Below are positions 2,062 to 27,594 of a stretch of DNA of 27,594 nucleotides, one piece after another. Made by a program: the position numbers and the translations under genes. The notes beneath the pieces were generated by a model. The model worked only from the letters and a program-made list of their open reading frames with translations. It made no database searches and was not told where the DNA came from. This DNA comes from Bolinopsis microptera (Eukaryota > Ctenophora > Tentaculata > Lobata > Bolinopsidae): positions 1-27,594 of the forward strand of contig NW_026971859.1 of NCBI RefSeq assembly GCF_026151205.1, read 5' to 3'. Position 1 is the stretch's first letter. Every line of letters starts with the position of its first letter.

Positions 2062-3550
2062 ACATGGAAGCTTGCTTCTGTTGTTCCGGTACACAAGAAG
2101 GGTGAAAAAGGATCTGTTGAAAATTACAGACCCATCTCACTGACATGCTTAGTTATGAAAGTTTTTGAACGTTGTATTTCGAAAGAGTTGCTCGCAGCTT
2201 GTGAAGGGTTAATCGACTGTAGACAACACGGTTTTGTGAATGGGAAGTCTTGCACTACCCAGATGGTCCCATTCACAGACAACCTTGCGCTGGCCCTGAA
2301 CAATAAGTCAAGATCCGACATTGTTTATTTTGATTTTGCTAAGGCATTTGACAGTGTATCACATGACTTAATCCTTCGCAAGCTAAAAAATTTATATGGT
2401 ATTGATGGTCTGATGCTTAGATTTTTAAAGTCGTATTTACAAGACAGACGACAGCAGGTTGTTGTAGGCGGAGCTGTCTCAAGCATGCTTCCCGTGCAAT
2501 CAGGAGTGCCCCAGGGATCTATTCTGGGACCACTTCTGTTTGTTCTATTCATCAACGACATGTTCTCGTGTGTTTCGGAGGATACAAATGTAGCATTGTA
2601 TGCAGATGACACCAAAATTTGGAGGGTCATCGAATGCTTTGAAGACCACTATATTCTCCAAGGAGATATAGACAGGTTGTTTGCCTGGTCAATCGATAAC
2701 AAAATGACTTTTCACCCTTCAAAGTGTAAGGTGTTATCTGTAACTCTGCAAAGAAATGTATTAGACAATCTTCCTTTTAATATTTATTGGTATAATCTTA
2801 ATGAAGTCATAATTGATTATGTGGCATCCCATACAGATCTTGGTGTAATAATGAACAACAGATTTCTGTGGGGTGCACATTGTGATCAATTGATATCTAA
2901 AGCAAGCTCAAAGCTTGGGCTCTTAAAGAGAACCTGTCATTTTACCATGGATAAACGCCAAAAGAGGGCTTTCTACCTTACCATTGTAAGATCAATCTTT
3001 GAACATTGCTCAGTTATATGGTGTCCTCAGCGATCGACACACATGTCGAAGTTTGAGGCAATCCAGAAAAGAGCGATCAAATGGATCAATGGACAACAGT
3101 TTGATCATTATAGTGATATTGAGTAAAATACAATTTTTTTAAGTAAAATAAAAAAAATAAAAAATAAAATAAAAAAAATTCTATGAGAAGCAGAAGGAGC
3201 TTAAAATTCTACCCATTAGATCTAAGTTCATCCATAATTCAATTACGCTCTTCTATAAAATAGTAAATGATTTGGTAAGTATATCTCTACCTGAATATAT
3301 TACTGTTGTTGAAGCTGGAACAATGAGGTACACAAGGAGCACGGCATCAGTCATTGAAGGACTTGACACCAGCACATATACCTGCTCTATTGTACCAAAC
3401 TGCGATAGTTTCAGAAACAGCTTCTTTTATAGAACAATGCTTCTGTGGAATGCACTGCCAGCCTATGTTAGACAGACTGAGAAAATTTCTATTTTCAAAA
3501 CAAAGCTAACTGAATTTCTCTGGTCTTCTGACGTATGCTGGCCTGATTAG
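2062..3550 (+). pseudogene. LINE reverse transcriptase remnant, frame broken by an A-rich insertion
   Basis: The open part starts before the first ATG (2155): codons from 2062 read WKLASVVPVHKKG and then NYRPISL, the first RT block. Motif A is FDFAKAFDS (about 2329), motif B is SGVPQGSILGPLLF (about 2500) and motif C is YADD (about 2599), so all three catalytic aspartates are present. The frame stops at 3124-3126, inside about 55 bases of A/T-rich sequence (3124-3178). It resumes in another frame at 3182 with YEKQKELKILPIRSKF and runs to WNALPAYVRQT and a stop near 3550, the normal C-terminal tail of these proteins. The RT belongs to the CR1/L2/Jockey assemblage, and I cannot name the clade. 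It is not functional as it stands: it lacks the N-terminus and is frameshifted. Confidence 0.85.
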
Positions 3551-4344: not shown

Positions 4345-6500
4345 ATAACTGGAAAAAATTATTTGGATTGAACATGACAGTAAAAAAAACCTGACAGTTA
4401 ATTAATAAAGTGCGAGGAAAGCAAAATAAGCAAATGAAACCGTCATTCATGATAAACAATGAGCGTGTTATTTGTCGACGAGTTATTGCTTATGAATTTA
4501 ACAAGTACTTTGTTTGATTCACGATGTCAATCCTTCGCATCTCGCCAATCTGCATACGTTGTGGTTGCGAGAAGCATTATTTGATGCGCGCGCGACCCAG
4601 TAGTGCATCGCGCTACAAGTACTTTGTGTCAATCGCCTCCAATCTGAACGAGGTCTATGAGAGGAGGATTGATGAAGATCCTATAATTGCTAAATCATTC
4701 ACTGACTACTTGCCACAGTCCTGTCCGTCAAGTATTTATCTCGCTGAATGTACAAGCTCTGAAATAATACAAATTATAAGTGAATTTAATAATGGTAAAG
4801 CTAGCGACATACCGGCACATGTAATGAAGCAGTGTAGTCAAACTATATCAGAACATCTTGCCAGAATTTATAACAACTGCATGAATGAAGGTGTCTTCCT
4901 TGATCAACTGAAAACGGGTAAGATAACCCCGATATATAAAAAAGAAGATGAGGAATTACTCGAGAATTACAGGCCAGTATCAACATTACCAGTATTTGGC
5001 AAAATATTTGAAAAAATTATTTACAGTAGATTATACAACTTTTTCTTATCTCGAGGAATAATATTCGAAAATCAGTTCGGCTTTCGAAAAAACCACTCGA
5101 CAAGTCATGCTCTTAATTACTCCGTAAATCATGTCGAAGAAAAACGGAATAATAAAAACCACGTATTAGGAATATTTATCGATCTCTCTAAAGCATTTGA
5201 TACCTTACCATTTGATATGCTACTTAAGAAACTTAGTAATTACGGAGTTAGAGGAAACGCACTAAAGCTGCTCTCCAGCTATCTAAATAATAGATACCAG
5301 TATGTTAGTGTACTTGGTGAAGAATCAGAGCCTCTTCCAGTTAAACTAGGCGTACCACAAGGATCCGTTTTGGGCCCCTTGCTCTTTCTTATCTATATAA
5401 ATGACATCTATAGATGTAGTACATTAGGAAAGTTTGTACTATTTGCAGATGACACAAACATCTTTGTAGCTGCTGAAACTAAGGAACTAGCATACAAAAT
5501 AGCGAATGAAATTCTTGACTCTGTGTGCCAATATATGCGCCATAATCTACTGCACATTAATGTTAAAAAATCTTGTTACATGTACTTCTCGCCTACTAAA
5601 CGTAAGACAATTGATAATACTGAAAATGACTTGAATCTAGAAATTGATGGAATCCCGATCAAACAGGTTACTGAAACGAAATTTCTAGGTGTTATTATAG
5701 ATGACAAACTGAGTTGGACACCTCATATCGAGAAACTAACTAAGAAATTAAACAGTATATGTGGCCGTATTTATCGAATAAAAAACTCCCTCCCCAGCCA
5801 GCTGTACAAACAGATATACCACACTCTTTTTGAATCTCATCTAGGATACGGTATAACTGTATGGGGTGGTGTATCAATTAATAAGCTTTCACCGCTATTC
5901 CTTGCACAGAAGAAATGTGTCCGAATCTTATTTGGGGACTCGGAAGCATTTAGCGACAAGTTTAAAACGTGTTCTCGTAGCAGGCCAATCCAGTGCAGTA
6001 TAAACAAGAAAGGTCAAATATCCAATGAATCAACTATACCTCACATTAAACCGTGTTCTATATGTATCAGCTTGAGGAAGACTGGTAATAGACAAGTAAG
6101 GCCACATCGCTGCCAAATACTTGGGGCAGAATTCCACTCTAGAGAATCAACAAAACCGATTTTCCAATCTAAGGAACTAATGACAGTACATAACATATAT
6201 AGATACAGATGCATTACTGAAACAATGAAGATAGTGAAGAGTCATCAGCCCATATCCATGTATTCTCTATTTAAGAAGTCTCAGCTCAGAGATAACAGAT
6301 TTGTGACACCACACTCATCTCACAATTTCGCATATAAAGGGGCAAATCTATGGAATACGTTTCTTGAACAGTCAAATGCACGTGGTAAAATAGGTTCTCT
6401 AGGCTCAATTAAATCCCAATTGAAGTATTCTATCATAAAGGCTCAACACCAACCTAACAATATTAACTGGCAGGACTTAAACTTCAACACTTTCCTATGA
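4345..6500 (+). pseudogene. CR1-like LINE reverse transcriptase, 5'-truncated and interrupted by a short insert
   Basis: LINE coding similarity is visible from about 4345. The frame is open from 4395 (QLINKVRGKQNKQ, then EFNKYFV). It is preceded by an in-frame TGA where the family normally has Trp, and by a probable slip in an A-run. The 101-bp insert plus duplicated target (4514-4627) adds 114 bases, a multiple of three, so the frame resumes unchanged at YFVSIASNLNE and stays open to 6500. The first ATG of the open frame (4524) lies inside the insert, so its first 30 or so residues are not LINE sequence. Motifs: NYRPVSTLPVFGKIFEK, motif A FIDLSKAFDT, motif B LGVPQGSVLGPLLF, motif C FADD at about 5442, then the C-terminal region ending LWNTF. 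The endonuclease domain is missing. A Cys-containing segment (C near 5994, CSIC near 6054, C near 6111) interrupts the usual RSRP...LGAEF stretch. Confidence 0.85.
4514..4614. mobile_element. Very short inserted sequence, copy 3 (101 bp), inside the LINE frame
   Basis: It is bounded by a perfect 13-bp direct repeat, ACAAGTACTTTGT, at 4501-4513 and 4615-4627. Both flanks encode the same LINE residues (NKYFV), so the pre-insertion sequence can be read directly. The insert begins TTGATTCACGATGTCAATCC and ends in GCATCGCGCT, as does the copy at 1674. Internally, CTCGCCAA and TTGCGAG can pair, as can GCGCG and CGCGC near the right end. ACAAGT after the insert also follows copy 2. The true duplication may therefore be the shorter TACTTTGT plus 5 bases of junction microhomology. 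Confidence 0.75.
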
Positions 6501-7983
6501 AAAGACCCCCATTTATATTTATATCTTTTACATTTTACACCTGTCACTCACATCATATATACACCACAAAAGAAAAAGATTCATTCAATCATTACATTAT
6601 ACACTCACTCCACCAAACACGCACACAACCCATTGAAGAAGGTTACACGCGGGTGTACCGTTCGCTTTATCCGAAGGGAAAAATGATACTTTACGTAACG
6701 CGCGATTTACGTCTTGGTAGCTAAATTATTCAAGCGCTATTTGTCAGAGCGACACAAATGCGCGCTTGCGCGGCTTTCTTATCCACCACTCATGTTTACA
6801 TCGTACCAGGCAATGGTTCAGTTTAATTATGGTAAGGGCACAGCCTGTCAAAAACCCTTTTCGGATGATCCGTCGACACCGCCTGAAGGTGACTGCATAA
6901 TAACGGATCATCGTGGAATCAAACGTTAATAAGCTTGCAGCTTCCGATGTCAATGTATTCATCCTGGTGTCGCATGCTTGAACTGGTTTTGGACCTCTTC
7001 ATGCTTTTAATTAATTTATTATTGTTATTTAGTATTATGAGCTGATGTGTACATATACATACGGTATCTAAAAATTAAGCGTATAGGGAGCATATTTCAA
7101 TAATTTTTAAGCAATAATGTATTGCAAGCAGCTTCAACTTAAATATCCAATATCGCATAAAAATCATTTAACTCAAAACTAAAATTTTATTGGAATATAG
7201 GGAAAACTAAAATAAAATTAATGTCATACCCGTCGCCACTCTCAGCAGTCAACCAGGGCTCATAAAAGCTTAACAGCGCCTGGGTCCGTTCACCAACTGT
7301 GCTAATGTGAGTGGCGGTGTGGTAAGACCCATTTTTAACAGCGTGAATATTTATTAAATACAAGCGCGCTAGCTGCTAGCATACTTGTATCATTTAATTT
7401 TAAATCAAATTCATTCGGATATATATTTATTGATTATGTATTGAATTGGTGATAAATAATAAAATTGTCTTTTCTCAAAAAATTGTCTTTTCTCAAAGTA
7501 AAAATATTTTGACTTTTTTTAAATTATTTAGTTTTGGGTTTTTTATGCTCACTAGGAATAAATATTTTAAAAGCGATATGATTTATGATTTGAAAAACGG
7601 TGCCGCTTTGACGTGCCGCACAAATTATTATGTTTGCTCTGCACTTCGATTTACGAAATCGCGCGCACTGGGTCAGTTTTAGTTTAATAACAATGATCAT
7701 GACAATGTTGCATTTATATTTTAAAACTTTTCTGCTAACGTTTATAAACGTTGGTTTTTTAATCGACAAAAGTTTTAGCAGTTGATGCACAAAAATTTAT
7801 TTTAATGTTAATTCTTTCTTAATTAGAAATCTTAACAAGTGAGCTTATCCCTATGCGCGGCACTCTTTTCGAGCTTTTGTATATGTGAAGGGAACCAAGC
7901 AAGAAACTAGCAAGATAGGTTATGCTTGGTCAGCTCAGATGATTTCATGCTTGATACGAATTTGTTCTAGCTACTATTTGATG
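6501..7983. other. Non-coding stretch after the second LINE
   Basis: The beginning is probably 3' UTR of the LINE, but no clear tail is seen. An open frame at 6714-6929 (near YQAMVQFNYGKG and DDPSTPPEGD) has no motif I recognise and is probably chance. Bases 7447-7498 contain a direct repeat of about 18 bp (AAATTGTCTTTTCTCAAA). Bases about 7853-7915 belong to the repeat also seen near 1950 and 4105. Otherwise it is AT-rich sequence without features. Confidence 0.45.
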
Positions 7984-8001
7984 TAATAATAATAATAATA
8001 A
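7984..8001 (+). repeat. (TAA)6 microsatellite at the 5' junction of the R4/Dong-like element
   Basis: Six perfect TAA units lead directly into GGCCCCC, the first bases of the element's ribozyme fold. The 3' end at 13140 is followed by (TAA)3. The element therefore lies inside a TAA repeat, the target known for Dong elements. Confidence 0.9.
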
Positions 8002-8124
8002 GGCCCCCGCTCAGAACACCAGAGCTAGTGAGTAGTGGGTCCGAGGCTGATACTCGTGGTCAGCACCCCCGGGGTCGGTAACGGCAGCAGTCCATTGGAT
8101 GGCTGCCGGCTAGAGCTACTCACT
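8002..8124 (+). ncRNA. HDV-like self-cleaving ribozyme at the element's 5' end
   Basis: The double-pseudoknot fold can be drawn by hand. P1: 8002-8007 (GGCCCC) with 8071-8076 (GGGGUC). P2: 8027-8035 (AGUGAGUAG) with 8116-8124 (CUACUCACU), nine pairs. P3: GGG 8037-8039 with CCC 8068-8070, adjoining P1. P4: GGCAGC 8083-8088 with GCUGCC 8102-8107. GGUAAC at 8077-8082 matches the usual strand after P1, and its GG can pair with CC at 8041-8042 (P1.1). J4/2 is GGCUAGAG, with the candidate catalytic C at 8110. The P1-P2 linker forms its own GCUC/GAGC hairpin (8009-8025), and L3 carries GCUGA/UCAGC (8046-8064). Ribozymes of this type are known at the 5' ends of R2, R4 and other LINEs, where they trim the element RNA from the upstream transcript. 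Cleavage before G8002 would release the element exactly at the TAA junction. Confidence 0.85.
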
Positions 8125-8149
8125 CCCTGGCATTGCCAGATGTCTTCTT

Positions 8150-8278
8150 CCTGAGGTTCAGTTATAGCACAAAGTTTAAACTATTAACACTGTTAGTTCC
8201 CCCGTTACTAGTCCAAGTAACGGGCTAGAACTTGATCAAACAGCTGGTGAAACACCTGTAGACCACCAGAACCTCAGG
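8150..8278 (+). promoter_or_regulatory. Structured 5' UTR domain of the LINE (multi-branch fold)
   Basis: CCTGAGGTTC (8150-8159) is fully complementary to GAACCTCAGG (8269-8278), closing a domain. Inside it are a perfect eight-pair hairpin, CCCGTTAC/GTAACGGG (8201-8224), and a GGTG-AAA-CACC hairpin near 8246. I infer a role in translation initiation or in binding the element's own protein, as for structured 5' regions of R2. Nothing here proves either. Confidence 0.5.
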
Positions 8279-8947
8279 CTCTTATGTCCCTTCTCAACAT
8301 CACTTAATGTTATCATGAGATTTTGTACTTGCTTAATATTCATGTTTAGGAGGGAAAAAAGAAAAGAAAATTACAAAAAAAGTTAAAAAGAAAAAAAAAA
8401 AAAGAAAAAAAAAAGCACAAAATGGAAAAACCAAGAAAAATATCTGTAACTGAGAAAGCAGTATTTTAAGATAATATATCCCCTGATTTTTATTCCATAT
8501 CATAGCAGCACAGACTGCTGGTACTGAAAGAATATCATTCCTTTGGAAATATTACTATCTATAATGTTACTATACTCGAGTAATTATAACATTGTAATCA
8601 TTCTATATTTCATTGTATTGTTTGTTAATTGTCCCCCGGTTAATTCCCTTTCTTGCCTCTCGTTGGTTAAATTCTTGTATCCTTCTGCTCTAGCTCTTGG
8701 TTTGTTGACTAGGTGCAATTGACACCTAGTGGTTTTCTTATCGGGCATGGACTGACCCGCAGAAGTCCCCCAATCTTAAGTTGTGGACTCGTGACAAAAG
8801 GATGCGTGGCCATGGGTTAAATGGTTACTAACGGGTCTACTACCCAGGAGGTAGCTACCTGGGGAGCTGGGCGACGCGGGGCAACGCTCAGTGCTCTGTT
8901 TTCCCTGCCAACTCTCTAGGGGGTATACTAAGTCCCCCAGTTATGAT

Positions 8948-11900
8948 ATGAATTCTCTCTCAAATTTTTCAAACTCTCCTACTCTCCCTACTAATGGGTC
9001 AGAGCAGGATCAACAACCTAACATCATCCCTCCAGCTCGACGTGAGAGGAAGGCTCGCACGGAGACTTCCACTCGGCACACGTGGAGCAAGGAGGACAAC
9101 ATACAGCTCATGACGCTGTATTACCAGAGCCAACCATCCCGCTCTGGTTACAGGAGAAGACTCCGATCACTGTGGGATGATGCCGGACTCTTCACTTGTA
9201 CGGAACAAAGATTGGCAGACCAAGCAAGGTCAATCAGAAATAATAATCTCCTTTCAGACATAGAACTACTGGAGATTCGAGGTACTCTTCCACCTAGCGT
9301 AGTGGAAGAGGCTCCAACAACGACAACTCAAGCTTTACCCACAGTCTCCCAAGCAATCAGGACGTTGAGGGATGCAACTATCCCAACTGTCGCCGCCGAA
9401 GAACTCACCCCCACCACAACGGTACCTGATTTTGACAAGGAGGCAATCATTGAACGGCTAAAAAGGCTCCTAGAAGACCCTTCAGTGATAGAAACCAAGC
9501 CCCTGAGACATGTGAACAGAAAGAAGCTTATGGAGGAAACATCTCTCATCAACTCATGTATAGCAGAGATTCCAACTTCTTCAATCACTGAAACCAACAC
9601 CCTATTGCTTGCAGGGGCACATTTAGTCAGCGAAAAACTTGGTGAAAAACCTGCAAATAAGAATACAGGGAAACGGAAAACTCCACTATGGAAAAGAAGA
9701 ATCGAAGATAAGATTACCCAGGTTAGGAAAGACATCTCCTACCTTGAGGAGAAGAAGAAAGGTACTACCCTTAAACAAAAAATACTAGAAGGGCTCAACA
9801 GACGTCACCCTCTGTTGAAGAAAAAGGGTATACCATGCATCATTGAGGAGCTCAAGCAACGTCTTCGCGCAAAAGCAGCTAAGATAAAGAGATTTAATAA
9901 AAGATGCGAACGATACCACCAGAACAAGTTGTTTGGAAACAACCAGAGGCAGTTCTACAGAAACCTTCAAACAAACCCTGAAGAACAGGATATCTCCCAC
10001 CCTGAGGCTGACAAGGATTCTTGTCTGAAGTTCTGGAAGAACATATGGGAGCAGCCGGTTGAACACAACAGTGATGCTGAATGGTTACCGGATGTCAGAA
10101 CAGCACTAGCCTCAGCAGATGAACAGAGACAGTTTGTTATAACTAACACCCTGGTTGCAGATAGAGTGAAGAAAATGACTAATTGGTCCTCTCCTGGTAC
10201 AGACGGACTGCATGCTTATTGGATAAAGCACTTTAAAGAACTCCACAATAGGATTGCAGATCAACTTATGAATTGCCTAACCAACGCTGATATCCCAGAC
10301 TGGATGACATTGGGACGCACGTACCTGCTCATCAAGGACCACTCGAAAGGACCCATCCCAGGCAATTTCAGACCGATTACTTGCTTATCAGCTATGTGGA
10401 AACTGTTCACTGGTCTAATCTCAGATTCCATTTACCACCATTTAGACCAGCAAAAGCTCCTCCCCCCTGAGCAGAAAGGGTGCAAGAAGAAGAGTAGAGG
10501 ATGTAAAGAACAGTTAATGATAGACAAACTCATCCTGAAGAACTGTAAACGAAGGAAGCGGAACCTGAACATGACGTTTATAGACTACAAGAAGGCGTAT
10601 GATAGCGTCCCACACTCTTGGATTCTATCTTGTTTGACCATGTGTGGCATCTCTTCATGCATCATAGACCTGTTTGAAGCCTCCTTCAAACAATCGTATG
10701 TTAACCTGATGCTTGGTAAAGTTTCCCTTGGGAGAATTAAAATTAATAGAGGTCTATTCCAAGGAGACTCAGTCTCACCTATCCACTTTATCATTAGTCT
10801 TATACCCCTGTCCATTCTTTTGAATAAGCATGACATAGGATACTCTCTGGAGAGAGGAGGTCAACCGAAAGTGTCGCATAGGCTATATATGGACGACCTC
10901 AAGTTGTATGCCGAGAGTGAAGACGAAATGCACACACTGGTTAATACCACAGCAGAGTTCAGCAGTGACATAAAAATGGAATTTGGGCTAGAGAAATGTG
11001 CCGTGGTGAAGGTGAAGAAGGGAGCAAGAGCCGTTTTTGAAGGCATCTCCCTACCCACAGGTGAACAGATCCATGAGTTGGAGGACGACGGCTATAAGTA
11101 TCTCGGAATACTAGAAGCTAATGATATACTACACAAAGAGATGAAAGCACTGGTTACAAAAGAGTATATCAGAAGAGTTAAAAAGGTTTTGAAATCCCAG
11201 CTTCATGGCAGGAATAGTATACAAGCGATTAACACCTGGGCTGTACCTGTGATAAGATATGGAGCTGGAATTCTCTCATGGAATGCTGGGGAGACCAAAG
11301 CCTTAGATGTCAAGACCCGGAAACTGATGAGGATACATGGAGCTCACCACCCCCAAGGAGATGTTGATCGGTTATACGTCAGCCGTCAACTGGGTGGCCG
11401 TGGGCTACATAGTATAGAGGAAGTCGTTAAGAGAGAGGAGAATGCACTCACCACTTATGTGGTGAGAAGTAGAGACCCAGAACTGATTGCTCTGAAGGAC
11501 TACTTTGTCAAAGACAAGATACTCTTGGGTGAAGAGATAGAGAAAGATATTGACCGAACACAACGCGAGGAAATCCGCAAGGAGAAATGGACTGCTAAAG
11601 TGATGCACGGACAGTTCCCAAGGCAGATGATGGGTACAGCAGACCCGTTAACCTCTTGGAACTGGCTCACCCAACAAGATTTGAAGAAGGAGACAGAAGG
11701 ATTGTTGATAGCAGCCCAAGACCAAGCACTTAGGACTAATTACGTGAAGCACAGGATTGACAAAACACCTGGCTCTTCTCCCCTCTGCAGACTCTGCAGA
11801 AATCATTACGAGACAATAGATCACATACTGAATGGGTGCCCAAAACTTTCACAGACAGAATATAAGTGTCGGCATGACAAAGTAGCTGCCGCATTGCACT

Positions 11901-12355
11901 GGAGTCTGTGCAAGGAATACGGCTTCCCACGCAGTAAAAGGTGGTACGAACACCGGGCAGAGAAGGTGCTGGAGAACGGACAAGTCAAGATATTGTGGGA
12001 CTTCCATGTCCAGTCGGACCACGTTATCGAACACTGTAGACCGGATCTCCTCCTGGTAGACAAGGTAACCAACGCAGCAACCATCATTGACGTTGCAGTC
12101 CCAGGAGATACCCGGATCTTGGATAGAGAACAAGAAAAGATTCTGAAATATCAAGACCTGAAAAGAGAAATTAAGAAGAACTGGAATTTACGAAAGGTCA
12201 CAATCGTCCCTGTGGTGATAGGCGCATTAGGAACTATCACCATAAACTTTCGTAAACACCTCGACGCAGTCCACTGCAATCTGAGCATCTCTAATCTCCA
12301 GAAGACAGCTCTGCTTGGATCAGCCAGGATTCTCAGGATGGTCTTAGACATATAA
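8948..12355 (+). CDS. R4/Dong-like LINE polyprotein: Myb-like domain, reverse transcriptase, restriction-like endonuclease
   Basis: The protein of about 1135 residues would nick its DNA target and reverse-transcribe its own RNA there. The open frame extends up to a GTG at 8891, but the first ATG (8948) is the likelier start. In order: a Myb-like segment around residues 42-75 (TWSKEDNIQLMTLYY, then RRLRSLWDDAG); a basic, coiled-coil-prone region of about 230-320; RT block RPITCLSAMWKLF near 474; motif A FIDYKKAYDS near 543; motif B RGLFQGDSVSPIHF near 600; motif C YMDD near 646; a CCHC knuckle (CRLCRNHYETIDHILNGC) near 946; and a nuclease with RHDK, RPDLLLVDK and IIDVAVPGD near 1030-1048, then EKILKYQDL. 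Catalytic acids are all present and there is no frameshift or stop. No C2H2 fingers of the R2 kind are seen upstream of the Myb-like segment. A CCCAGG...CCTGGG hairpin containing GGTAGCTACC lies about 100 bases upstream. Confidence 0.9.
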   Translation: MNSLSNFSNSPTLPTNGSEQDQQPNIIPPARRERKARTETSTRHTWSKEDNIQLMTLYYQSQPSRSGYRRRLRSLWDDAGLFTCTEQRLADQARSIRNNNLLSDIELLEIRGTLPPSVVEEAPTTTTQALPTVSQAIRTLRDATIPTVAAEELTPTTTVPDFDKEAIIERLKRLLEDPSVIETKPLRHVNRKKLMEETSLINSCIAEIPTSSITETNTLLLAGAHLVSEKLGEKPANKNTGKRKTPLWKRRIEDKITQVRKDISYLEEKKKGTTLKQKILEGLNRRHPLLKKKGIPCIIEELKQRLRAKAAKIKRFNKRCERYHQNKLFGNNQRQFYRNLQTNPEEQDISHPEADKDSCLKFWKNIWEQPVEHNSDAEWLPDVRTALASADEQRQFVITNTLVADRVKKMTNWSSPGTDGLHAYWIKHFKELHNRIADQLMNCLTNADIPDWMTLGRTYLLIKDHSKGPIPGNFRPITCLSAMWKLFTGLISDSIYHHLDQQKLLPPEQKGCKKKSRGCKEQLMIDKLILKNCKRRKRNLNMTFIDYKKAYDSVPHSWILSCLTMCGISSCIIDLFEASFKQSYVNLMLGKVSLGRIKINRGLFQGDSVSPIHFIISLIPLSILLNKHDIGYSLERGGQPKVSHRLYMDDLKLYAESEDEMHTLVNTTAEFSSDIKMEFGLEKCAVVKVKKGARAVFEGISLPTGEQIHELEDDGYKYLGILEANDILHKEMKALVTKEYIRRVKKVLKSQLHGRNSIQAINTWAVPVIRYGAGILSWNAGETKALDVKTRKLMRIHGAHHPQGDVDRLYVSRQLGGRGLHSIEEVVKREENALTTYVVRSRDPELIALKDYFVKDKILLGEEIEKDIDRTQREEIRKEKWTAKVMHGQFPRQMMGTADPLTSWNWLTQQDLKKETEGLLIAAQDQALRTNYVKHRIDKTPGSSPLCRLCRNHYETIDHILNGCPKLSQTEYKCRHDKVAAALHWSLCKEYGFPRSKRWYEHRAEKVLENGQVKILWDFHVQSDHVIEHCRPDLLLVDKVTNAATIIDVAVPGDTRILDREQEKILKYQDLKREIKKNWNLRKVTIVPVVIGALGTITINFRKHLDAVHCNLSISNLQKTALLGSARILRMVLDI

Positions 12356-12458
12356 TATATTTGAGTGTATAATACACTGTAAATACTCTTTTTTTTAGTT
12401 TAATTTTCACTGGGTACTCTAATAAACACTTTTTACCTGGTCCTCTTATTTTTCTTCC

Positions 12459-12990
12459 CTTGCTATGCAAGCCCTGTCTCTTGTTTATACAATTTTTAAC
12501 TCGTATATTGGGTAGATTGAGTATTTATTATGGATTTTATATTGTTGTTAGCCCTGCTGATTTGTGTATTAGTAATGATTACCTATCTGATGGACTACGG
12601 TATATACAGTTGATGGTAGTTTTCTCTTATTTTTCTTCTCTTGCTCTGCAAGCCCTGATTCTTGTATAAACATATTGTTTGATATAATATTGTATATTTT
12701 TGTATTGATTGTGGTATTTTGTGTGCCAGATTCAGCAATGGGTTCTTGCTGAATCACTGTATATTACACTCTGTGACTAGTCCCTTTGATCCATCTCTTG
12801 CCCTGCAAGCCCTGTTTCTTGTCTATACAGCATATAATTATCATGTATCACATTGTAGTATGTAATAAACATTTGTAGTAGTGTAGGATTGTTTGAATTT
12901 CTTTTTGCTATGTTTTATAATATTTATTTGTATAATTTGTGAGTGTCTCTCCCGCTTTTCTTCCCTTGCGCAGCAAGCCCTGTCTCTTGT
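12459..12990 (+). repeat. Four hairpin-bearing repeats in the LINE 3' UTR
   Basis: The motif CTTGC-NNN-GCAAGCCCTG followed by TCTTGT occurs at 12459, 12640, 12797 and 12965, spaced 181, 157 and 168 bases. Each forms a five-pair stem with a three-base loop (TAT, TCT, CCT, GCA in order). A pyrimidine-rich lead (TTTTCTTCCC-like) precedes most of them, and TATACA- or TAAACA-like sequence follows several. The sequence between motifs is AT-rich and only weakly alike. The inverted copy at 15901-16642 keeps four motifs with the same order and, mostly, the same loops. Confidence 0.8.
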
Positions 12991-13040
12991 AAAAACAACC
13001 TTGAAAGTTTTGTAGATACATATAGTTTCTACACCTTTAT

Positions 13041-13116
13041 CCTCTGGTCCCTAGGGTCAGCTGATCCCGGGCCAGAGGAAAACTACCGACTGCCAAGGTC
13101 TGACGCCTAGGCAGTC
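13041..13116 (+). promoter_or_regulatory. Two conserved hairpins at the LINE 3' end
   Basis: CCTCTGG (13041-13047) pairs with CCAGAGG (13072-13078) around a GGGTCAGCTGATCCC inner stem. GACTGCC (13088-13094) pairs with GGCAGTC (13110-13116). Both stems are kept in the inverted copy near 15925-16000. In RLE-type LINEs such as R2 the reverse transcriptase recognises 3' UTR structure, so these are candidates for that site; this is inference. Confidence 0.6.
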
Positions 13117-13140
13117 GAGACCTCTTATTGAGACCCTTTA

Positions 13141-13149
13141 TAATAATAA
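13141..13149 (+). repeat. (TAA)3 at the 3' junction of the LINE
   Basis: GAGACCCTTTA is followed directly by three TAA units. The inverted copy ends with the same bases and then a TTA tract, so the element boundary is set at 13140. Confidence 0.8.
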
Positions 13150-22158: not shown

Positions 22159-24887
22159 ATGAGCGAGCGACTGTTTGGGTTCACGCGCAGTGAGCTGGTC
22201 GAGCACCACGGCTGGGTTTCTGACGTCGTCTTCGACAACCAGCAGGTACGCACGTGTGTGTGGCGCGAGCGCAGGTAGGAAGACGTGAACATTTTATTGC
22301 ATGAGGATTACTCCAGCAGCGATATTATACTGCTACTCTCAATGACAATTCCTTAAGTTCAGACTTTAGCCTTGCTTTTGATCAGCACACTGACTGACTT
22401 CACGTTATTTTTTCACATCACGTGACCTATCACATGATCTCAGGAGTTAGTATGGGTAGCAGGACAGAAAGGTTATGTGACCAGCTACTATTCGTGTGGC
22501 TTACAACTCTACACTAAGTTCTTTGCTAATGACGAGGTTGTTCAGCTGATGCCTGTCCAGGCTGGCATACTCAGCTTGTCCTCCAACAGGCTCAACCTAC
22601 ACACACGACAGGTAATCAGCTAATTACATAATTAGTCAGCTTCATGATTAATCAATTAACTATGCAATTAGTTTGAAAAACTGTATCCGGAAAACTCTCC
22701 TGTGCTGTGCAGTGTTCGACGTTTCAGTGCCATACAATATACAACCTTATAAAGTCATAACTAATCGCCTAATATCTTAACTAATTAGTCACCACCACTC
22801 ATCTTCAGGGGTTGTCCCAGCACTCGTTCACCTCTCCCAACATGACCAAGATGTGCTGCATGTGCACGAACTCTAACTCTAACGATGTTCTGATTGGTGG
22901 CCACACTAAACACGTGACTAAGTACGATCTGGGTAAACAGAAAGTGGTTAACGAGATCGTGCTGGGAGATGCTGGGTGTGTCATCATCAGAGAGACCACC
23001 AGTCTTTGTTGTTTTGGTGAGTAGAAGCAAGGGGTGGGTGGGTTGGTGGGGAGAGGGGATGCACTGACCACATCGGGGTGGTGAAGGGGGTGCACTGACC
23101 ACATCGGTAATCGTTTTACTGAAGTTGATATTATGATAAGAAGATTATCAGGATATTGTGGCACGCCTTATCATACAATGTTAAACTGATATTTCATGAC
23201 GATAATGGCAGTGAAAAGTTAGAACTTTTTACTGGACGAAATAACTAAATAACTTGATAAAGAGTACACTGTACAGTTGCAGTGGTGCTCTTACTAAGTT
23301 TATAATGATACACTGGTGGTTTCAGTGTTCATTTGTTCAACGTATCAATCGTTTGAGACTGTTCTAGCTTCGCTGAATTTGTATTGAATTGGAGTTTACT
23401 TGTAACTGAATAAGATACGTGTACAATGTACAATGTACACACAATATTGTAATCTGTGAAAAACATGAACTCTTTCTGGATTTTATCAAATTCCATAATT
23501 TACGTCATAACCAAAGTTAGTTTTCACTACATTCTAATACCGCTGATTCAGGTTGTCCTGATGGAGATATAGCCCTGTACGATAAGAACACCTACAAGAA
23601 AGCCAGCAACATCCCCGCACATTCGGGCACCATCTCCGACTTTGACATCTGCGACAATCTCCTTGTATCCTGTGGGTTTGCGTCGCGCGGGAACGACATG
23701 TCCGTGAAGCGCTCACTGCTTGTGTACGATCTGCGCATGATGCGCAGCCTCAACGCAGTGCACTGCTCAATAGATCCGGTTCAGCTGAGGTTCATGCCCA
23801 TGTACCACTCACAGGTGAAACTCATTTTAACAAGAATTGCGCCCGTTGTTTCGTTTTGGCGGACGCTAGATTTCCATTTCACATTTACTATAAATTTAAG
23901 TATAAGCTCCAATCAGCTCACTTCAGTCTTCATGATAATAATATTGATAAATTATGCATTAAGTACAGGAAACACTTGAAATTAAGTTCAATTGCCAAAG
24001 AACTTAACTTGTAAAGCAAAGAACTTAAATTGTAAGCAAAGGTAAACTATACTCGTGTACACATCAATATACACTACGCGTGCCACGTACAAATTGGGCT
24101 TATAACCTAATATTATACATTATATCGTATACATTAAAACACAGTTGCGCCGCGCATTCATAGATCACAGGCTATCTATACATCACATCTCCGCAAGCAA
24201 TTCTCGCGCGCTCAACTTTTATGTTGCATGGTTACTAACGGAAGGAACACGACATACTCAGACCCACCTACTGCAATCTCCAAAATCCACGTTTTTCTGC
24301 AAAAACGTCCATTCGTAACCTTTCACTATTGCCTTTTTTCAAAAGGGTGAAAAGGAAAAAATAGTTGTCAGTGGGATCGGACCGAAACGGTCACTCCCAA
24401 CTGGGATTCGAACTCAGGCCGACAAAACTTGAAGCTATTCTTTTAACAAGAATCTCGTACCAGATTAGAGTCTTTACACCTCTCCCAGTACACAATTTAG
24501 CAGATACTCTAGTTCTAATGATTATCCTGAACTTGGCTAGTATATATGAAATATTTGACATGGAGTTGTAGGGTGAGTTATGTGCCTCGCCGGGCTAAAG
24601 TAGTGGATGTCCTTGCTGTACGGCAAGTTAAACAAGGAACTGAAACTACTAGGTTCCGTACAGACTCAACTCTGCACCCATGTCAATATGTTCATTATAT
24701 GCAAGCCTCTTGATTTATAACCAAGTAATTTTGTTCAGGTCCTGATCGCATCACAGTCCGGGCAGTTCCAACAGCTGGAAGTAACAGCAACCCTTCCTCA
24801 GAACAAGTATTTGTTTGAGGTGGATTTAGCGGGTAGTTACTGTAATGCCATCGACCTTTCCTCCACATCTAAAGCTCTAGGTTAGTG

Positions 24888-24942
<55 letters not shown>

Positions 24943-27594
24943 AAGATTGAGTCAGTGACCCAAGTGAAATCAAAGATGGCTTCAAAGATGCTGTAAGTGT
25001 AATGCCAATTTCAATGATTCTGAATCTAAGATTAACATCAACTACAAAACCATTTCCCCTTTTCAGCAATCGGAGACTCATCAGGAGTGTTACACTTACT
25101 AGCGTCTCAAGAAGGAACAGCTTTTAACTCCTTCTCACAACCCACATACTTCCCTACAGAAAACATGCTCAACTTCCCCAAAGTCAATGTTAGTTTAAAT
25201 GTTCTTACAGTTCAGTCAGTTTCAAGGACAATCAAGGTTTACAATTATTTTAAAAGGGACTCTTAACTGTAGGCGGATTCGAAATTTAATCTAAATGGTA
25301 ACATGGCGCTTGATCTTAGATGACGTCACATCTCATCACGTGACGTCACTTAAACTCTTATAATCCTTCCGTTCAAGTAGTACCTTCTCTACAGATAGAC
25401 GACTACAATTTCCCGCTGGCAACTGTCCCGATGCCTCACGCAACAGAGAGACTATTGAGCGAATGGCCCCCAGAGTTCAACAGAACCGGAGATCGAAGGA
25501 CAAAACCCATTGACCCTGAGATACTCCGCAATATGAAGATGGTAAAATTTTATCTTTCACTTTTTCTTATCTTTATTTCCCTAAGTATCCTTATCTCTTT
25601 CTCTTCCCTCCTTTTGATAACATCAGTATGGAGCCAGACCAGAGTCTGTTATATATTTCAACCAATCTGCAAACATGAATAAAATCAGTTAACAATATAA
25701 TAGTCTGGTGAATATTGACGTTATAAATTTCAGGTTGGGTTTGTCGGTGGCTACTCACCCAATCCGCATAACATGTACAAGAACACTATACCATACGATC
25801 TAAACTTACAGCGGGTTGAAGAGCTGAAGAAGAGAGAGGAAGTTGTCACCAATATACCCAGGGTAACGTTATTTTTCACTTTCACTTTCACTTTGATTCC
25901 CAGAGCTTGTTCTACAGGACATAAAAGCTCTTTGGTACGGTTTCCATTCTAATATTGTATCGAAGTTTCCCCACGTGTTATAGCATAACTAAAGAATAAA
26001 GATCTAATTCCAATTTCTAGGTTTATCAGAGAATAGACGTAGATCCCACATCCCTGACGGACTCAGAACTCCACAATTACAACAGAACTAAATTTAGCGT
26101 CTTCTACAACAACAAGGGGAATACTTACATCTGTACTGTCTTACAGGTAACATTTTGTGGCGTCACTGCATGAATATGACGTCACTAATCGTACCGCGTG
26201 ACAGGTTATCGTTTGACATTAATACGTCTTAGCTAATAGTAATATTTAGAAAACAAACAAATACTATAGTACGAATTGAATTGGGTAATATTATGATCTA
26301 TTTATGGCGTAATATATTCGATAATAAATTACTAACATTATTAAATATTTCAGATGCTGTATTACCTGGAGCCGATAGCACTAGCCCTTAAATCCCACAT
26401 CTGCCAGAATACTGGATGCTTGGCTTGCGAGCTGGGGGTCCTCTTTTACACGCTTGATGTCTCTGATGATAAGATCACTGACATCGACAGTTTTATTCAG
26501 GTATCTCCACTCAATCTTCACTGAATCTGACCCAAAAGACGACTGTTAATTAATTTGACGTTCACAATTCACATTCTGATTTAATTTATTAAGATTAAAA
26601 ATGATATAATTAGCAGTACATGGTTTTTACGTTCCTCCCTCCCCACAACACTCCCTCCGCAGGCGTTTGAGCAGCAGCCAGCAGCGAAGTACCAGGACTG
26701 GCAGCTGTACGAACGTCACCACGAGAAGAAGGATTACTTACAACTGCCCCAGAGTTTACTAACTTTCTTACTCAGACACCTGCACGAGGAGATACTGAGA
26801 CCTCCCCAACCTACCAGCGCTATCTACCTTACTTTCGGCAGCAAGGTAAGAGGGCTGTGACGTCATGTCACGTGGTGTGTGACGTCATTTCACAAGGTGT
26901 GTGACGTCATGTCACTTGGTGTATGACGTCATGTCACTTGGTGTATGACGTTATGTCATGTCACATAATTGGTATGGGGTTGCGAAAGCGCCCAAGTCAG
27001 AGTTTTTCATCTTACTCATCGAAAATCGCAAATTTAATCCGTGTTTTTAATTTTGTTCTAATAAAACGTCTCTACAAATAATTTGACCTAATTTGGACAG
27101 CGGTAAACACTATATTTGAATCAAATCACCCAGTTTTTGTTTCCCTCATATTCATATTATAGATGACGTGAGTTAACCATGTTCCGTGCTACATACCAAT
27201 ATTACAGGTAGGACACAGGACAACATGTGCCACGTGTCAACAGTCTTGGTACAATAAACCGAGCATCAACCTCACCTACTCCCTCGATTATCCCAGAGAG
27301 GCTGGTGTCAAGATCACATTCGTTGACGTACGTTTATTTACTTTTAGTTAGTCGAAGATACGGTTTCAAGAAAGATTATCATGTCGAATTTTTAAATATT
27401 TATTTAATAATTATAAACATTTGGATACCCAAACTTCCTAAATGAGTGGAACTACCGAAGCTAAATTTGTAAAAAGATTAACATTAACGGTCACGTTTAA
27501 CCTTTGTGCAGTTGTTAAAGAGGACGATGCAAGCAGAGAACACAACACGACACATCCTTTGTAACCGTTGTGGCAACTACACACCCTGTAGGAC
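22159..27594 (+). CDS. PAN2: PAN2, poly(A)-specific ribonuclease subunit (5' part, thirteen exons, right end cut)
   Basis: PAN2 is the catalytic subunit of the cytoplasmic PAN2-PAN3 deadenylase, which starts shortening of mRNA poly(A) tails. Exons: 22159-22245, 22444-22611, 22809-23016, 23552-23814, 24739-24880, 25067-25188, 25395-25541, 25734-25862, 26021-26146, 26354-26500, 26663-26845, 27208-27327 and 27512 onward. All introns are GT-AG with consistent phases, giving about 641 residues. Exons 1-6 form the WD40 propeller (LVSCGFASR, VYDLRMMRSL, LRFMPMY). Exon 7 and the start of exon 8 match the linker (LLSEWPPEF, DPEILRNMKMVGFVGGYSPNP). Exons 9-13 start the pseudo-ubiquitin-hydrolase domain: GNTYICTVLQMLYYLEP aligns with the protease Cys box, with Thr at the catalytic Cys position, as expected for an inactive domain. 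Zinc-type Cys pairs are CATC and CNRC. The rest of this domain and the C-terminal DEDD nuclease lie beyond the window. In-frame stops just before 22159 support the start, unless a spliced upstream exon exists. Confidence 0.93.
24340..24487 (-). mobile_element. tRNA-derived SINE candidate in PAN2 intron 4
   Basis: On the minus strand, 24487 to about 24394 can be folded as a degenerate tRNA. The D-arm-like CTC...GAG has GG in its loop. The anticodon-arm stem is ATTCT/AGAAT, followed by a long variable region. The T arm is CTGAG-TTCGAAT-CCCAG with the invariant TTCGAAT loop (24401-24418), a good B box. The acceptor stem is not preserved. A non-tRNA body follows, with ACCGTTTCGGT and a T/C-rich stretch near 24340-24365. 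The long variable region suggests a Leu- or Ser-type ancestor. Boundaries are approximate and no second copy is in the window. Confidence 0.4.
24885..24944 (+). repeat. (GTGAAA)10 hexanucleotide repeat next to a splice donor
   Basis: Ten perfect units begin four bases into PAN2 intron 5, directly after the donor GTTA. Three units of the complement, (TTTCAC)3, occur at 25874-25891 in intron 8, again shortly after the donor (25863). Confidence 0.95.
25321..25348. promoter_or_regulatory. Paired TGACGTCA sites with an E-box in PAN2 intron 6
   Basis: Two perfect CRE/ATF octamers start at 25321 and 25341, exactly 20 bases apart, the second overlapping CACGTG (25337-25342). A further octamer lies at 26177 in intron 9. 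Function is unknown; the spacing of about two helical turns is noted as seen. Confidence 0.45.
26858..26967 (+). repeat. 22-bp tandem array, each full unit with TGACGTCA, in PAN2 intron 11
   Basis: Units start at 26858, 26880, 26902, 26924 and 26946. The first four each begin with a perfect TGACGTCA, followed by TTCAC or GTCAC, then GGTGT. The fifth is altered (TGACGTTA) and decays. The array starts 12 bases after the exon 11 donor. It could be a chance minisatellite or a cluster of bZIP sites. Confidence 0.85.

Follow-up and report, generated by a model that had tools for sequence, protein, structure and literature searches.

The window, i.e. the whole stretch of 27,594 nt analysed here, contains an R4/Dong-like non-LTR retrotransposon of about 5.1 kb, which extends from 8002 to 13139 or 13140 and is flanked on both sides by TAA arrays (Table 1). 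Its single ORF contains the Pfam domain RVT_1 and its top two hits in a comparison with solved structures are R2 retrotransposon proteins (residues 393-1096), whereas the endonuclease motifs were recognised by eye only. Judged from these resemblances, the ORF is predicted to encode a reverse transcriptase of the R2/R4 type. The label "R4/Dong" is the best reading of the target, architecture and resemblance of the element rather than the outcome of a tree; (TAA)n is the stated target of Dong-like elements in most insects, molluscs and cnidarians (PMC7998251, in excerpt). The four copies of the 49-nt repeat in the 3′ UTR are 73-100% alike, are spaced by 157-181 nt and each contain a short TTGC..GCAA stem, and the 3′ region (12380-13149) folds more stably than its 20 shuffles (z = -4.5). 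Elsewhere in the window there are two more reverse-transcriptase ORFs belonging to other retroelements (2062-3126 and 4518-6500), an ORF with a match to the N-terminal domain of PAN2 (23521-23979), probably a host-gene exon, an AGTGAA array of 10.3 copies (24884-24945) and a minisatellite with 4.7 copies of a 22-nt unit (26856-26958).

Table 1 Features of the retrotransposon and of its predicted 5′ ribozyme (positions in the window)
Feature	Position	Strand	Basis
(TAA)6, 5′ portion of target array	7984-8001	+	sequence, junction survey
HDV-like ribozyme, predicted cleavage before G8002	8002-8124	+	fold reading, descriptor, shuffles, copy comparison
P1 5′ strand, partner 8071-8076	8002-8007	+	fold reading, descriptor
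Hairpin in P1-P2 linker (P1.2-like), 4 pairs, 8009-8012 x 8022-8025	8009-8025	+	folding, covariation alignment
P2 5′ strand, 9 pairs with 8116-8124	8027-8035	+	folding, fold reading, covariation alignment
P3 5′ strand, partner 8066-8068 (or register one base on)	8037-8039	+	fold reading
L3 start: U8040/G8045 fit conserved L3 U/G pair; C8041-C8042 pair with G8077-G8078 (P1.1)	8040-8045	+	descriptor, copies
Hairpin inserted in L3, 5 pairs, 8046-8050 x 8060-8064	8046-8064	+	folding, covariation alignment
P3 3′ strand	8066-8068	+	fold reading
P1 3′ strand	8071-8076	+	fold reading, descriptor
P1.1 3′ strand, partner 8041-8042	8077-8078	+	fold reading, copies
P4 hairpin, 7 + 4 pairs; outer helix 8082-8088 x 8102-8108	8082-8108	+	folding, fold reading, covariation alignment
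J4/2 with candidate catalytic C8110	8109-8115	+	fold reading, descriptor, copies
P2 3′ strand	8116-8124	+	folding, fold reading, covariation alignment
Second structured domain of 5′ UTR, closed by CCTGAGGTTC/GAACCTCAGG	8150-8278	+	folding z = -3.9; covariation weak
Single ORF, 1135 codons from ATG 8948: reverse transcriptase, then Cys/His cluster, PD..D motif	8948-12355	+	ORF list, Pfam, structure matches; Cys/His and PD..D by eye
3′ UTR carrying four spaced copies of 49-nt repeat	12443-12997	+	repeat analysis
A(TAA)3, 3′ junction with target array	13140-13149	+	3′ junction comparison

The first 123 nt of the element can be arranged into the nested double pseudoknot of HDV-like ribozymes. Every helix announced by the original prediction (P1, P2, P3, P1.1 and P4) was recovered in the right order, as were the nine uninterrupted pairs of P2 and the extra hairpins in the P1-P2 linker and in L3. 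P1 is made up of six pairs, including one G-U, beyond which C8008 and C8070 form a C-C mismatch. C8110 is found one base after P4, the place expected for the catalytic C of HDV-like ribozymes, and may have that role here. The J4/2 position 8113, where an A is usual, is occupied by G in all of the 40 copies compared below. A U/G pair is conserved in the L3 of HDV-like ribozymes, and P1 mismatches lowered the activity of some published ones (PMC3774820, in excerpt).

The descriptor used to search for this fold consisted of a P1 of six pairs, a P2 of at least six, a P3 of three, a P1.1 of two, the U and G of L3, a P4 of at least five pairs and a C that follows P4 at once or after one base. Its only match in the 27.6-kb window, both strands searched, places the cut before G8002 and C8110 in J4/2, in agreement with the original prediction. 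When a single strand of the window was dinucleotide-shuffled 2000 times, 48 matches arose in 46 of the shuffles, and when the local 180 nt were shuffled 20000 times, one shuffle matched; the chance of a match is about 0.024 per window strand anywhere and far lower at the junction itself, but these rates are optimistic because the descriptor was drafted after the candidate was known. Applied to both strands of 104,452 bases of fetched loci, it recovered 5′ ends of the element and one unrelated place (L077). No Rfam family attained its gathering score in a scan of the whole window and no HDV family was retrieved by a permissive scan of 7960-8180, an Rfam match being a matter of database cut-off and not a defining trait of HDV-like ribozymes. 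With pseudoknots left out, the folding energy does not stand out from chance (z = -1.15; 30 of 200 shuffles were at least as stable).

The search for this 5′ end in the 265-Mb assembly returned 41 entries, two of which are pieces of one copy, i.e. at least 40 places with the window included (among the best 40 of 44 candidates), and the matching 5′ ends are 86-100% identical. The first 126 nt are identical in 19 of the 40 copies, so recently moved elements carry an intact motif. The first position of the element is reached in 38 copies, the other two being cut short; the first base is A instead of G in L038, the number of C after GG differs in L036, L044 and L045, and 22 nt of the 5′ end are duplicated in L033. 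The full descriptor is passed by 25 copies (L026 with its register one base off) and failed by 15, all of them truncated or diverged. The core bases are conserved: the L3 U (T8040) is present in all 40 copies, the L3 G (G8045) and C8110 in 38 each, and both P1.1 pairs, allowing G-U, in 39.

The co-variation of P1-P4 anticipated among the genomic copies was found weakly in P2 and P4 and not at all in P1 or P3. The alignment, in which the pseudoknot was written out, contained 13 of 21 distinct sequences: L029 (insertion), L031, L040 and L046 (truncated), L036 (near-duplicate of L032) and L042, L043 and L045 (indels) were dropped before the count, and the indel-rich L041, L044 and L047 were retained. 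In this alignment, 92.1% of 518 cells pair, versus 91.1% when shuffled and 28-46% with slid partners. Both-side changes occur in four pairs (shuffled mean 1.0; four reached by 3 of 500 shuffles), and the covariation score was reached by none of 500 shuffles. A second alignment was pairwise and took in all 40 copies; three both-side changes stay in it, one in P2 of L039 and two in P2 and P4 of L044, which is indel-rich and there has a base other than C at 8110. The fourth change, that of the L3 hairpin, hinges on how the gaps are placed and is lost in the second alignment. In neither alignment do the helices at the heart of the pseudoknot, P1, P3 and P1.1, contain compensatory pairs. The copies lend a little support to the nested helices, and the pseudoknot is the best reading of the sequence fit, the conserved core bases, the position and the precedent. 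Downstream of the ribozyme, 8138-8290 has a z of -3.9, a stability that no shuffle out of 200 attains; nevertheless, the 46 pairs of the 8150-8278 domain show one both-side change against 18 one-sided changes and 40 broken cells among 26 distinct rows, so covariation does not support this domain. The 5′ RNA of R2 contains a protein-binding structure and, by analogy, the domain could be one as well.

Among the 38 copies with a first position, 26 follow TAA directly (15 of 21 among the copies listed first) and the remaining 12 have variable junctions, in which bases such as G, CTA, AA or TAT precede the first G; the TAT of L020 matches the continuation found in the target repeat. Along with the descriptor match and the kept core bases, this survey bears out the claim that an HDV-like motif lies exactly at the TAA/element junction of an R4/Dong-like LINE. 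Exactly six TAA units are found directly upstream in 12 of the 40 copies and, with up to three extra bases allowed, more than six in only one of the 38 (L023, seven units and then an extra G). At the 3′ side, 2-5 units follow the element in the window and in 20 fetched 3′ ends out of 43 matches. Short TAA tails of host repeats are among the insertion targets: when 12 of 40 listed matches to one target repeat were cut out, the 10 that were uninserted had 5-8 units, once 11. Another host repeat ends in about five units in four uninserted copies, and in a fifth copy there follows what reads as a 5′-truncated piece of the element. Since uninserted targets are themselves short, the six upstream units most likely reflect target length, and the idea that (TAA)6 is a part of the element was rejected on the counts from the first of these repeats. 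Two insertions in the target repeat for which both sides are known (L015 with L053 and L026 with L062) have about ten TAA units in total each, which is compatible with a target duplication of about three units upon insertion. A long target-site duplication at L010 was also considered and rejected, its flanks being similar but not identical.

We consider it very probable that the first 123 nt are an HDV-like self-cleaving ribozyme of a non-LTR retrotransposon that is young, R4/Dong-like and targets short (TAA)n arrays. In that case, read-through transcripts coming from upstream would fold the ribozyme RNA while being made, and the nested double pseudoknot would cut before G8002 and leave the TAA leader behind, so that the element RNA would start exactly at G8002. 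Target-primed reverse transcription to the end of this RNA would recreate an identical 5′ end in each full-length copy, and precise joining may be due simply to the TAA array. The mosquito ribozyme drz-Agam-2-1 is accelerated by its linker hairpin together with its long P2 (PMC4908430, in excerpt); by analogy, the linker hairpin and 9-bp P2 described here may act like their mosquito counterparts and probably hold P1 and P2 together.

Other explanations have to be weighed against this one. The mismatch on top of P1, the atypical J4/2 and the failure of 15 of the 40 copies to match the descriptor could point to a decayed or weak HDV-like ribozyme that was kept by descent, the 5′ end being set by the transcription start or by something else. 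Yet the failing copies are the diverged or truncated ones and the 19 identical copies indicate that recent movers have the intact motif, which makes decay an improbable explanation. It is very improbable, too, that the nearly constant upstream (TAA)6 belongs to the element RNA and that the RNA used for insertion is uncut at the junction. The recurrence of exactly six units, the near lack of longer arrays and junctions more uniform than a junction cutter predicts would fit such a scenario, but target arrays are short in uninserted copies, the TAA tail of the other host repeat has about equal length, and other copies of the element show fewer units or different bases before the first G. Finally, the stem-loops could mainly serve in protein binding or translation start as a 5′-UTR structure, their likeness to HDV being due to chance. 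This is hardly credible, as the full pseudoknot was found at one place only in the window, that place is the junction, and such ribozymes are known from the clade (PMC3774820, in excerpt), even though the strongly folded second domain comes next and covariation is confined to the nested helices.

That HDV-like ribozymes at the 5′ ends of LINEs form a known class had been acknowledged by the original prediction. Ruminski et al. reportedly described them in 2011 (JBC) at the 5′ ends of Ascaris R4 and other non-LTR elements; Ascaris R4 thus likewise reportedly has its ribozyme at the 5′ end, but its target is the 28S rDNA and not TAA. In Bombyx mori Dong, an R4-clade element found in TAA repeats, an HDV-like ribozyme cleaves at the TAA/element junction in vitro and the 21-nt upstream product corresponds to seven TAA units (Eickbush, Burke and Eickbush 2013, PMC3774820, in excerpt). 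The present element resembles Dong in its R4-clade type, its TAA repeats, its HDV-like ribozyme and the cut at the junction (assayed in Dong, predicted here), whereas the first element bases differ between the Dong primer and the sequence from 8002 onward. The host probably differs as well: the assembly is rich in TTAGGG arrays (4273 overlapping matches against 0 in the control, those listed lying within contig C1), which speaks against most insects, and a search for COX1 gave no match. The R2 5′ ribozymes described in PMC3774820 are similar in fold, in a P1 of 6-7 bp (with a top mismatch in about a quarter of them) and in their role in 5′ processing; nevertheless, most of them cut upstream in the 28S, whereas the cut predicted here corresponds to the first base of the element. 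The P1-P2 linker hairpin and extended P2 are shared with drz-Agam-2-1, but P2 has 9 bp here and 12 in Agam (PMC4908430, in excerpt; the comparison covers the linker and P2). The present ribozyme also has a hairpin in L3. Class, clade and TAA setting alike had been published by 2013, so the pairing with a TAA-targeting element, suspected to be undescribed, has a published and assayed counterpart in Dong (PMC3774820, in excerpt). No paper on this lineage or on the L3 hairpin was found among the open-licence full texts listed. Apparently new are the lineage, the linker and L3 hairpins and a set of junctions that fits the published expectations only in part.

These junctions are the main use of the locus. 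The 2013 paper links cleavage at the element edge with variable 5′ junctions (PMC3774820, in excerpt), a link that 12 of the 38 junctions follow and the 26 precise ones do not; the R2 model predicts variable junctions with an edge cut, whereas here they are mostly uniform. One possibility, which we regard as tentative and rather doubtful, is that an enlarged ribozyme with linker and L3 hairpins operates in a junction-cutting element with mostly precise 5′ junctions. If true, second-strand priming at TAA would be precise without target sequence on the RNA, unlike in the R2-derived model. The multiple copies of this young R4/Dong-like lineage allow a ribozyme-defined 5′ end to be compared over many insertions.

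The assembly was also searched for relatives. An RT-motif pattern aimed at a second R4-like lineage gave 38 matches, all with the letters of this family bar one base, and the best 60 of 4661 candidates in a protein search were all 90-100% identical, so that more distant relatives may exist beyond these. A core pattern search gave 32 matches, against 15 in a reversed control: 24 are copies of the element, five are single places and three belong to one repeat (twice on C10 and once on C13). This repeat (L048-L050) was considered as a second TAA-linked ribozyme family and rejected as chance, as its flanks are common to the three places, the repeat itself resembles by eye a portion of some Cys-rich gene family, and it is not matched by the descriptor. 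Seven diverged 5′-end copies, several of them indel-rich, are found on one strand of C12:11422630-11456685 with a spacing of 5.5-5.7 kb; five have a 5′ flank that is common, by eye, also to a copy on C8 (L017), as if the element plus its flank had been amplified in tandem. In two other cases (L028 on C6 and L046 on C5), one copy of the element has inserted into the TAA tail of a second, forming head-to-tail pairs. Lastly, the 5′ and 3′ ends L020/L055 (C95:3781-4636) lie less than 1 kb apart and possibly represent an internally deleted, non-autonomous derivative.
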